DNA from: Nitrospinota bacterium
GTDB taxonomy: Bacteria > Nitrospirota > Nitrospiria > Nitrospirales > UBA8639
Length of the DNA stretch: 13,833 nucleotides
Direction of reading: 5' to 3'
Assembly: GCA_022561525.1 (NCBI GenBank)
Contig: JADFRB010000009.1
Location: 1-13,833, forward strand
Positions 3 to 10,660 of this stretch are shown here, piece after piece. Both the position numbers and the translations under genes were made by a program. Each line of letters begins with the position of its first letter. Within the stretch, counting starts at the first letter, position 1. The notes below the pieces were generated by a model. That model worked only from the letters and a program-made list of their open reading frames with translations. It did no database searches and was not told the DNA's origin.

Positions 3-1700
3 CGTCTGCCAGATGACCTACACATACGCATTGATTTTGTTGATGGTATCGAAATCGAAGGGCTGAATGTTGGTCGAGTTGGCAACGTCTCAATGAAAAC
101 CAACCGACCCGAGATCCGGGATGTCGGCGGCGTCTTGCAAGCCGACACCAGCTATCCTTCTGAAGTTGGGAACCTCGAATGGGACAGTTACCATCAGATG
201 GGATTCAAGTCCTGGATGGAGGCGCCGCTCGGCACAAGTGAGGAGCCGATTGGATATATCTCCGTCAGAAGCAAGACAGACCACGTGTATGACTCTGAGA
301 CCGTAAATTTTTTCTTGGAAATCGGACGCCAACTCGGTCCCGCAATACGAAACAGCGAGTTGAACCGCGAACTTCGGTCAATGGTCGCGCGGGAAACCGC
401 GGTCGCCCAGATCGGCCGAGTTGTCTCGTCTACGCTGGACCAGGATGCCGTGATCCAGGTGGGGTTGGACGCCATCACCCGCGATTTACCCTATGACCGT
501 GCGATGATTACACGATTTGACGCTACTCGTCAGATTGCCAGTCAGGCTCATGTGAAAGGGGTGTCAGATGAGCTAGCGGCCGTGGCCAATTCCTTCGAAA
601 TTCCCATTTCCGACCCAACCAGTTTGGAAGGCACGCTGCTGCTTCAAGGCCAACCCGCCCTGGTCAACGACGTCAAAACCATTTTTTCATCGCTGCACCC
701 CTTGAACCAGCAATTGGTCACAGCCATGAACACCCACGCGTTTATCGCGGTGCCGTTGAAATTCCAAGACACCATGCTGGGTGCACTGATGGTGGACCGA
801 CGATCAACCATTCCGTTCACGCAAGATGATGTCTCTATTTTACTGACAGTCGGCCATCATATCGCACTGGCCCTTCACAATGCCCGTGCCTATACCGACC
901 TGCAAACATTGAATCAACAACTGGAAGCCAAGGTACAGGAACGGACGTTTGATCTTGAGCAAGCCAACCGCCACCTCGAAACTACGAATGAGCAGCTTGC
1001 GGAATTAAACGAAACCAAGTCGCGGTTTCTTGCGCATTGTTCGCATGAACTTCGTACGCCCCTGGCCTCGATCAAGGGCTTTTCGGAAAATTTACTGTCT
1101 GGGTTAGGCGGGGCATTAACCACCAAACAAAAAACCTCGCTTCAACGCATTGAAATCAATGCCGACCGTTTGGCGCGTATGATTGGCAATCTGCTCGACC
1201 TTTCCCAAATCGAGGCTGGGAAGATGCATTTGAATCGGAGTGCATGCGATCTTACGGTGCTGGCGCAGGAAGTTGTGGGACTTTACCACCCTTTAGCCCA
1301 AGCGAAAAACCAGCGCATCGAAGTTCAGGGACCAAATCAGGGCGTCAAACTTTATGCCGACCCTGATCGTGTCACACAGATCTTGCTGAATCTCCTTCAC
1401 AATGCCAGTAAGTTTACCCCGGAAGGAGAAACGATTCTGATCGTGACCGAATTGGTGCCACCCCAGGAAGCCCGTGTATCCGTCATCGACTCAGGACCAG
1501 GCATCCCGGAAGACGCCATCCCGAAATTGTTCGACCCCTTCTTTCAAGCCCACCGCGATCATGAAATGGGCACGAAAGGCTTGGGCCTAGGGCTCGCCAT
1601 TGTTCAGCACTTGGTGAACCTTCACGATGGGACCATACACGTGGAAAACCACCAACCCCACGGAGTCACTTTTCGTGTTCAATTTCCGTGTAGGACTTGA
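3..1700 (+). CDS. GAF-domain sensor histidine kinase, 5'-partial
   Basis: The reading frame is open to the left edge, so the true start lies outside the window; the ATG at 93 is internal because GAF-like sequence continues upstream of it. Order of parts, in residues from base 3: the end of a GAF domain (to about 115), a second GAF domain (about 130-300), a coiled-coil linker, then a HisKA dimerisation domain with the H-box SHELRTP (His codon at 1044-1046). The HATPase domain follows, with an N-box (LLNLLHNASKF), a G1 box (DSGPGIP) and a G2 box (GLGLGLAIV). No membrane segment or receiver domain is visible in this part. By family knowledge it autophosphorylates on the histidine and passes phosphate to a response regulator, which is not in view. 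The last codons, TGT AGG ACT TGA, lie inside the end of the hairpin element that starts at 1691, so that element provides the stop codon. Confidence 0.93.
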   Translation, partial: RLPDDLHIRIDFVDGIEIEGLNVGRVGNVSMKTNRPEIRDVGGVLQADTSYPSEVGNLEWDSYHQMGFKSWMEAPLGTSEEPIGYISVRSKTDHVYDSETVNFFLEIGRQLGPAIRNSELNRELRSMVARETAVAQIGRVVSSTLDQDAVIQVGLDAITRDLPYDRAMITRFDATRQIASQAHVKGVSDELAAVANSFEIPISDPTSLEGTLLLQGQPALVNDVKTIFSSLHPLNQQLVTAMNTHAFIAVPLKFQDTMLGALMVDRRSTIPFTQDDVSILLTVGHHIALALHNARAYTDLQTLNQQLEAKVQERTFDLEQANRHLETTNEQLAELNETKSRFLAHCSHELRTPLASIKGFSENLLSGLGGALTTKQKTSLQRIEINADRLARMIGNLLDLSQIEAGKMHLNRSACDLTVLAQEVVGLYHPLAQAKNQRIEVQGPNQGVKLYADPDRVTQILLNLLHNASKFTPEGETILIVTELVPPQEARVSVIDSGPGIPEDAIPKLFDPFFQAHRDHEMGTKGLGLGLAIVQHLVNLHDGTIHVENHQPHGVTFRVQFPCRT

Positions 1701-1873
1701 GAGAAAATAACTTGGGCAATATCGCGCCAAGATTTGGGTCGGATTTGGACGGAACGATTAAGAAAAACTCGAGGCATAGCACCGCTATGGTGAGGGTTTT
1801 TCGATTGAGGCCCGTTCAAAGATGGCCCGAAGATTGGATGCGAGATGTCCAAGTTATTTTCTCTCAGGTCCTA
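1691..1873. mobile_element. 183-bp palindromic MITE-like hairpin element, copy 1
   Basis: The element runs from a TA at 1691 to a TA at 1873. Its ends are near-perfect inverted repeats of about 28 bp (start TAGGACTTGAGAGAAAATAA; the other end reads TAGGACCTGAGAGAAAATAA on the reverse strand). The whole length folds on itself: position i pairs with 184-i, with a three-base loop at the exact centre (1781-1783) and tandem G-A-type mismatches between helices. Copy 2 at 7098-7280 has the same length and about 91% identity (16 differences by eye). It has no transposase. TA at both ends is what IS630/Tc1-mariner-type insertion leaves, so a non-autonomous element moved by such an enzyme is a reasonable inference. 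Short reading frames inside it have no ribosome binding site and are not considered genes. Confidence 0.85.
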
Positions 1874-4685: not shown

Positions 4686-4808
4686 GCAGGATGTTGAAAA
4701 AGTCCGCCAGCGGCGTTCTCGGCCCTTTGTCGTGCTCACGTACTCTCGTACGCTCCGCGCGCCAAAGCGCCTGCGGCCTTGCTGGACGGGCCTTTTTGAA
4801 CATCCTGC
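4686..4808. repeat. 123-bp palindromic intergenic element between convergent genes
   Basis: The ends are inverted repeats beginning GCAGGATGTTGAAAAAG at left, with GCAGGATGTTCAAAAAG read from the right. The arms stay similar inward to a central CGTAC-TCTC-GTACG hairpin at 4739-4752. It starts 7 bases after the receptor stop and lies before the convergent cyclase stop, so as RNA it could end transcripts from both sides. Its left arm shares about 26 exact bases (TTGAAAAAGTCCGCCAGCGG and the next six) with the right end of the element at 7943-8114, in opposite orientation. It has no coding content. Confidence 0.75.
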
Positions 4809-7097: not shown

Positions 7098-7280
7098 TAG
7101 GACCTGGGAGAAACTACCTTGGACAATATCGCGCCAAGATTTGGGTCAGATTTGGACGGAACAATTGAGAAAAACCCGAGGCATAGCACAGCTATGTTGA
7201 GGGTTTTTCGATTGAGGCCCGTTCAAAGATGAGCCGAAGATTGGATGCGAGATGTCCAAGGTAGTCTCTCTCAGGTCCTA
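7098..7280. mobile_element. 183-bp palindromic MITE-like hairpin element, copy 2
   Basis: Same orientation and exactly the same length as the copy at 1691-1873, flanked by TA at 7098-7099 and 7279-7280. The terminal arms read TAGGACCTGGGAGAAACTAC and, from the other end, TAGGACCTGAGAGAGACTAC. Relative to copy 1 the arms changed together (positions 17/167 and 20/164 both A-T to C-G). The right-hand TA plus the first element base forms the TAG stop of the zinc-ribbon gene on the - strand. The preceding gap 6977-7097 contains nothing I can name. Confidence 0.85.
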
Positions 7281-7942: not shown

Positions 7943-8114
7943 AGGGTATTCAAAAAGTCCCATCCAGTCCTGAGCAGAGTCGAAAAAAAAGGCCGGATTC
8001 GTAATGGGTAATGAGTAAGGGGGAAAGAAAGTAGAAGTCAAAACGACTCTTTCGCTTCATGTATCACGCTTCACGTCCCCAAAGAACGCCGCTGGCGGAC
8101 TTTTTCAATACCCT
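7943..8114. repeat. 172-bp element with 18-bp terminal inverted repeats
   Basis: The left end AGGGTATTCAAAAAGTCC matches the reverse complement of the right end (8097-8114) at 17 of 18 bases. The right arm continues inward as GAACGCCGCTGGCGGAC, the same module found at the left end of the 4686-4808 element. The interior (CCTGAGCAGAGTCGAAAAAA, then a low-complexity purine stretch) is unrelated and non-coding. The right end lies one base from the stop codon of the 63-residue gene. Confidence 0.65.
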
Positions 8115-9580: not shown

Positions 9581-10660
9581 ATGAGTCCAGAGACAGACGA
9601 CCAAAATATTCCACCCTCCACCAATCTTGACTCCAAAGATTTAACTGAAGAAGAAATTGCGGCTTCTGATGAAACGTCCTTGGAAGATGATTGGGCTGCA
9701 GCCTTAGCCGAGCAAAGTCAGGCAGAGGCCGAACCGCCCATGGCGGAAGACACCACATCGACGAGCAAAACTGAGGCGCAGCCCGAGGCTGTCTCCCAAA
9801 GTTCATCCGATGAGGAGGAGCCTCCATCAACTGACGCATCGTTGGAAGATGATTGGACCGCAGCCTTAGCCGAACAAAGTCAGGCAGAGGCCGAGCCGCC
9901 CGTGGCGGAAGACACCACATCGGCGAGCGAACCTGAGGCGCAGCCCGAGACTGTCCCCCAAAGTTCATCCGATGAGAAGGAGCCTCCATCAACTGACGCA
10001 TCGTTGGAAAATGATTGGGCGGCAGTTCTTGAAGATCAGGAACAACCCCAACCCGAAGCTCAACAGGCAGAGACGGCCCCCACAGAAAATGACCCCGCTT
10101 CCGATGGCTCAAGCCAAATCGTGATGGGTTGGCCAAACAGTGGCTCGGTTCAATCTCAACAAGACCCCACACCGGCTGAGTGGAAACCGACAAGAATCAC
10201 ACCAGCATCAGAACACGATCAGCCGGCAGACTCCTCATCTCCGGAGGAACAACTCGCCGCGTCTGCGGCATCATCGGCTAAACCTGAACATTCCACAGCA
10301 CCCGAACCCAGCAACATGCCAGAAACATCGCCACCACCAGAACTCTCCCTGGCGGCAGCCGCAGCAGAAATTTCTATTCAGGTAGTGATGGAGAGAGCCA
10401 CTGACGTCTCCGAAGTCATCCAAGACGAACAGGCAAGGGAACGACTTGAGGCATCTGGCCCCGCATCCGACACAAGCCCCACACAGCCGACGACTGCATC
10501 CGCGACCTCGGACAATCTTGCAGAAGCAGCGACCACTCCAAAAACTCCAGAATTGGATCAAGGCACACACCATCCCGAGCCGCCTCCCCCTGACATCCCG
10601 GCGCAGAACATTGAATCAGCCCCAGATCGATTCAGGCGCCCGTTCTTCTCAAATCTCTAA
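9581..10660 (+). CDS. Acidic low-complexity protein with 54-residue tandem repeats
   Basis: A 359-residue protein from the ATG at 9581, chosen because AGGTGAAG lies ten bases upstream and acidic composition begins there; the frame is open back to 9446 but that part is basic and unlike the rest. It is rich in Glu, Ser, Pro, Ala, Thr and Gln and almost certainly disordered. Two full 54-residue units and a partial third each start with SLEDDW(A/T)AALAEQ. This core resembles the N-terminal DDLWAEALSEQ segment of the flagellar switch protein FliN, but no SpoA domain follows. A short helical part near residues 255-300 (ISIQVVMERATDVSEVI) is the only ordered-looking stretch. It has no signal peptide. 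Function is unknown. It ends just before a probable assembly join. Confidence 0.7.
   Translation: MSPETDDQNIPPSTNLDSKDLTEEEIAASDETSLEDDWAAALAEQSQAEAEPPMAEDTTSTSKTEAQPEAVSQSSSDEEEPPSTDASLEDDWTAALAEQSQAEAEPPVAEDTTSASEPEAQPETVPQSSSDEKEPPSTDASLENDWAAVLEDQEQPQPEAQQAETAPTENDPASDGSSQIVMGWPNSGSVQSQQDPTPAEWKPTRITPASEHDQPADSSSPEEQLAASAASSAKPEHSTAPEPSNMPETSPPPELSLAAAAAEISIQVVMERATDVSEVIQDEQARERLEASGPASDTSPTQPTTASATSDNLAEAATTPKTPELDQGTHHPEPPPPDIPAQNIESAPDRFRRPFFSNL
9677..10000 (+). repeat. 162-bp in-frame tandem repeat, two full units plus partial third
   Basis: Units begin at 9677 and 9839, with a decayed third unit from 10001. The period is 162 bp (54 codons) and the two full copies are nearly identical at the DNA level, implying a recent duplication. 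Differences fall at both silent and amino-acid-changing sites. Confidence 0.85.

Follow-up and report, generated by a model that had tools for sequence, protein, structure and literature searches.

ERIC, Correia/NEMIS, RUP and YPAL are non-coding palindromic repeats of 100–200 bp that often adjoin bacterial genes; in the parts of the literature drawn on here, most of them have inverted ends and target duplications, and their transcripts would form long stem-loops (PMC2229807, PMC10969869). The element described here resembles them in these respects. As far as the same excerpts describe them, it has other sequences, duplicates 3 bp of the form TWA where several of them duplicate TA, and is set apart by a recurring apical module and by covariation and strand bias measured here over a phylum. 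The GTAG and CGTC families of REP sequences offer another likeness: the portion of the report cited describes subfamilies whose stems contain G·T pairs and differ in their complementary letters, in which its authors saw a hint that they act as RNA (PMC3733652). In that account REPs are 20–40 bp long with an unpaired tag at one end, whereas the present element measures 179 bp, has inverted ends and carries a duplication (PMC3733652). We considered REP/BIME membership and rejected it, as there is neither a GTAG-like tag nor a 20–40 bp unit but a 183-bp hairpin with the paired ends AGGACC...GGTCCT. Stem-loop repeats of Borrelia plasmids are similar in that compensatory changes keep an RNA-type stem; they differ in their much shorter stems and fewer copies, and in the section cited no target duplication is shown for them (PMC2674063). 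At the gathering score no Rfam family was found in the window, only tRNAs in seven other loci; below it, a plant miRNA hairpin model scored 23.6 bits on the minus strand against a cut-off of 180, and Ms_IGR-2 scored 13.7 bits. No paper whose title or abstract concerns an element of this sort in Nitrospirota was found in the open-licence PMC literature. Integron attC sites, which we assume not to be its identity, were set aside. IS5-like and PIF/Harbinger-like elements have 3-bp TWA or TNA duplications and GG ends; the element is like them in both features, and kinship is a lead only.

The window, the whole stretch of 13,833 nucleotides that was analysed (contig JADFRB010000009.1), holds two copies of this element. 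A reading of its letters alone, called here the sequence-only reading, had described two 183-bp copies at 1691–1873 and 7098–7280 that differ at 16 positions and fold into one long hairpin when position i is paired with 184-i. A recount bears this out, with 59 Watson-Crick and 10 G·T pairs among 91 mirror pairs in copy 1 and 61 and 7 among 91 in copy 2. Folded as RNA, the + strands of copies 1 and 2 reach -108.5 and -113.4 kcal/mol, and their minus strands -69.1 and -90.3 kcal/mol. The double compensatory changes reported at 17/167 and 20/164, the six pairs that are G·T in one copy and Watson-Crick in the other (7, 10, 26, 51, 79 and 135), the pair gain at 100 and the pair losses at 136 and 169 were all found again. 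The asymmetry between strands that had been drawn from the transitions held for those six, which do give G·T on the + strand, but one transition had been missed: at 169 a T facing A becomes C, which makes an A·C pair. Counted with it, the transitions in pairs stand at 6 G·T against 1 A·C, too few for significance.

The mobile unit itself runs from GG to CC, at 1693–1871 and 7100–7278, and the outer TA letters (1691–1692 preceding and 1872–1873 following copy 1) belong to the target site. Both 179-bp copies lie with the favoured folding strand on +, and the covariance model described below scores them at 210.5 and 206.0 bits on that strand and at 85.2 and 92.5 bits on the other. In copy 1 the outer 27-bp stem, the terminal inverted repeat, is formed by a left arm at 1692–1718 and a right arm at 1846–1872; it encloses an inner hairpin (1719–1845) with tandem G·A mismatch motifs and mostly-G·T pairs, within which lies the apical module at 1769–1795 (CTCGAGGCATAGC..GCTATGGTGAGG). 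The arms are 93% complementary over 28 nt, and the outer stem is 94.9% paired in 66 copies. The element is short, without a transposase gene and present in many near-identical copies, as MITEs are. No sigma-70-like promoter was found in the window between 1500 and 2050. The window also contains two direct 162-bp repeats, 91% alike, within an open reading frame (9670–9993), and a short hairpin repeat at 1965–2002 (CCTCCCCTTACAAAGGGGAGG) with several matches elsewhere in genome G002.

The element is a transposon, because 37 of 61 copies have an identical 3-bp duplication at both ends, where 10000 shuffles gave a mean of 17.6 and at most 29, and because two relatives, G001 and G002, have an empty site in place of copy 2: their flanking matches run on and lie closer together by 185 and 192 bases. 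The three letters flanking GG...CC are most often TTA/TTA or TAA/TAA; a G follows in 37/61 copies and a C precedes in 22/61. Identical duplications also flank 19 of 49 further model matches, fragments included. A perfect 3-bp duplication is absent from both window copies, copy 1 having GTA on its left and TAA on its right. Matches of a histidine kinase gene (GAF, HisKA and HATPase_c domains) to G001 and G002 end at window positions 1688 and 1690, so copy 1 sits in the last codons of this gene. Among the 55 copies with an open reading frame on both sides, 53 fall outside any reading frame, and 28 of 57 facing 3' ends overlap the element or sit within 25 bp of it. There is no orientation preference, the left gene being on the + strand in 30/55 copies and the right gene on the minus strand in 27/55, and a second count (22/43 and 19/43) gave none either; both counts rest on a simple ORF caller. 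Nor was a replication-strand preference by GC skew significant (p 0.12, 68 copies).

How widely is the element distributed? The window's own genome, which is 64% complete, holds it in 41 distinct places and two more. Counting that genome each time, a DNA match was obtained in 8/48 genomes of the family, while a covariance model built from 66 copies matches 12/235 genomes of the order and 24/395 sampled genomes of the phylum, the last in 13 families. In ten of these 24 a match exceeds 75 bits; a chance match may be among the weakest, which score near 30 bits, E-values being per single genome, and copy numbers from the phylum scan are minima, as only six candidates per genome were scored. Carriers of the exact pattern in the named set are the MAGs B18T1B5 (labelled Nitrospinota), OFTM76, SZUA-215 and casp150-mb.14. 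The copy set was reduced from 118 matches to 92 after removal of same-place repeats, 70 of which were flagged full-length; 68 passed the length filter and 66 of those were distinct. Several contigs in G000 and G004 (such as L051, L053, L057 and L072–L077) end inside a copy; the repeat probably breaks assemblies, so that copy numbers are underestimates. Copies in G061 and G070 (L165, 752–928; L173, 773–949) have nearly identical flanking letters and probably represent one old shared insertion. Plasmid and phage collections gave no blastn match to the element, and three exact patterns, which diverged copies escape, gave none in viral contigs.

That the hairpin changes single letters and keeps its fold is a strong observation with so many copies. 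Co-variation of the arms, proposed from the two window copies, was checked over the 66 distinct copies, which covary much more strongly than shuffled or slid controls: the paired share of cells is 94.3%, against 87.4% in shuffles and at most 53.6% in slid versions, and the covariation score is 0.233 against 0.111 in shuffles (0/500 as high) and at most 0.060 in slid controls. Double-sided changes occur at 41/66 pairs and in 260 cells, where shuffles give 17.8 pairs and 71.1 cells; they affect 22/27 pairs of the outer stem and 19/39 inner pairs. Two further sets of copies, whose alignments were fitted to the model and hence lean towards its structure, agree with this. In the held-out set (11 copies from six other genomes, outside the model) 614/716 cells are paired and 102 are non-standard; double changes occupy 109 cells, and 19 standard pair types are new at those pairs relative to the 66 copies. 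In the phylum set, which comprises 40 of 54 model matches from 19 more distant genomes after the weaker strand of each place was dropped, 1963/2202 cells are paired and double changes occur at 64/66 pairs (shuffle mean 48.0, highest of 300 shuffles 55).

The covariation favours one strand, as is looked for in a structured RNA. The + strand is more stable in 66/66 copies (mean -97.6 versus -70.2), also 66/66 with DNA parameters, and the alifold energy is -58.1 on + and -24.7 on minus. The 61 symmetric, mostly Watson-Crick pairs hold 141 G·T cells and 53 A·C cells; six other pairs are mostly G·T and one is mostly A·C, and unpaired positions have no strand bias (17:16 types). The predicted excess of G·T over A·C on the + strand is present in variant types found in at least two copies (28:9, p 0.0026), while types private to a single copy are balanced (23:23, or 17 to 19 without the five most divergent copies); the contrast between shared and private types is modest (Fisher p 0.023), and, as cells and shared types are non-independent events, the p-values are a guide only. 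The held-out copies have 45 G·T to 20 A·C and the phylum set 206 to 70 cells. Because the bias is confined to shared types, single copies seem to drift while lineages that spread keep the + fold. Since neither private variants nor orientation are biased, the fold seems to count for multiplying lineages rather than for the adjoining gene. The opposition that the sequence-only reading set up between a selected fold and a dead, decaying MITE was misplaced: inverted ends and 3-bp duplications are MITE-like, and individual copies, to judge by their private variants, do seem to decay.

Within the inner hairpin of copy 1, on the + strand, a first tandem G·A motif sets GA at 1731–1732 opposite GA at 1832–1833, and others lie at 1742–1743/1821–1822, 1756–1757/1807–1808, 1760–1761/1803–1804 (its first letter changed to A in this copy) and 1771–1772/1792–1793. 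The ten G·A mismatches of these five motifs are each kept in 59–64 of the 66 copies. They are not fixed over the phylum, since the tandem motifs are complete in just 4–10 of 16–18 distant representatives; there the apical module is better kept, and among 19 genome representatives it is the best-kept part of the element. In the main family a strict expression for this module fits 21/66 copies and a relaxed one 44/66. A second palindromic repeat of about 121 bp has a copy near window 4687–4803 (minus strand) and a related arm at 8083–8114, without an Rfam match at the gathering score in the window. Matches to it occur in 15/20 relatives of G186, and the window copy has dozens of matches in G001; its + strand is the more stable in 30/32 copies, and it carries a similar apical module, a loose expression fitting 22/32 copies. 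The covariance model weakly matches two members of this family (35.5 and 30.4 bits), and hairpins in G260 and G272 match the model mainly around the core. These likenesses suggest that the apical module is a portable unit, perhaps a protein-binding site, and common descent is likely. A bolder and speculative proposal, doubtful as it is, would be a superfamily of mobile hairpins in Nitrospirota in which one apical RNA module (roughly CCGNAGGCRTAGC...GCTAYGTTGAGGA) sits on unrelated outer stems (the 179-bp TWA element, the 121-bp element and others) as the ligand of a trans-acting protein, the folded + strand RNA being required by elements that move as DNA in order to spread, in other words RNA-assisted MITEs.

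A partner encoding the moving enzyme was sought through the ends of the element. The exact end pattern AGGRCCTGWNRNAA gave 59 matches in G001, G004, G026 and G065, none of them the window's own genome, and the reversed pattern 19; none of 61 pattern matches in four genomes, whose assemblies are broken by repeats, belonged to an autonomous partner. Twenty stretches around matches outside known copies were inspected, and in these loci no inverted pair was seen at the distance of an insertion sequence. Some matches are shortened derivatives, such as a core-less one in G026 (L193, about 2415–2455) in which the two ends are joined directly into a short perfect hairpin. Sixteen PF01609 matches were found in G000, G001, G004 and G026, five of which could be named (IS1182, IS5 and IS4 above the cut-off, IS5-like and IS701-like below it), and among the best four inverted pairs per locus none combined GGRCCTG ends with TWA. 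The IS5-like locus L258 was rejected as a partner, as its ends start GGGCTTG, its duplication is TA and there is no further likeness.

Based on these observations, we propose a palindromic, MITE-like transposon in which selection, acting in lineages that propagate, maintains the + strand hairpin, probably in RNA form, a reading to which we assign a probability of about 55%. Its 179-bp length, its inverted ends of about 27 bp, its copies, its duplications and one empty site are observed; on this reading it is a non-autonomous DNA transposon served in trans by a putative transposase that inserts it at TWA and duplicates this target. The whole + strand folds into one long hairpin, and the contrast between shared and private variants supports the view that this fold is kept in spreading lineages while inserted copies drift. 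The folded molecule may be an RNA from some source copies and may bind a protein, most likely via the apical module; the bound RNA would then aid the spread or tolerance of the element, not the gene beside each copy. An ordinary palindromic MITE, in which the arms match since both ends bind one transposase, subfamilies are new source copies and no folded strand is selected, would share the inverted ends, the duplications and the many copies, and would fit both the concentration of double changes in the outer stem and the unbiased private variants. We think it unlikely, as double changes also reach nearly half of the inner pairs, shared variants and held-out copies have more G·T than A·C, and the strands differ in stability in every copy.

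The strand preference raises the question of which nucleic acid is folded. The claim of selection on a folded RNA of the + strand stood as far as strand-specific constraint is concerned; single-stranded DNA that folds would give an identical G·T signal. The + strand might thus fold as single-stranded DNA and be bound during movement by a Y1 transposase (REP or IS200-like) or another single-strand enzyme, which would accord with a strand-specific fold with wobble pairs and conserved mismatches, with the greater + stability under DNA parameters, and with the strand-specific hairpins that IS200/REP systems use, as described in the part of the source cited (PMC6006769). The foot of the hairpin is without GTAG-like guide letters, however, and the GC-skew preference is not significant. 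Moreover, a 3-bp duplication is a hallmark of DDE transposases, not of Y1 insertion. RNA is favoured over single-stranded DNA because so short and fixed a duplication suggests that a DDE transposase works on double-stranded DNA, and we regard a single-stranded DNA element as quite improbable. Conversion between the arms, or template switching in the hairpin, had been offered as another cause of their likeness, and double changes do occur in single copies too (22 private types, some neighbouring). As the main cause it fits poorly, and we give it very little credence: it would erase the ten G·A mismatches and the six mostly-G·T pairs, and it predicts no strand bias, whereas in-stem mismatches seem to persist over many speciations. 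A cis-acting mRNA element, whether it stabilises the message, terminates it or is cut by RNase III, with selection at every insertion site, would suit the location of copies outside reading frames and close to facing 3' ends, and has precedents in ERIC and Correia elements in the excerpts cited (PMC2229807, PMC10969869); the lack of orientation preference and of strand bias in private variants makes it a most improbable explanation.

What would a selected hairpin imply for these mobile elements? That MITE-like repeats of bacteria give stable hairpin transcripts is well known, but selection on the fold itself has been hard to demonstrate. Many copies across a phylum permit a test of such selection and allow spreading lineages to be separated from the drift of single copies, and one strand and one module are thereby singled out for bench testing. 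The element family is a candidate new RNA family entry, and it would explain many unannotated repeats in these genomes.
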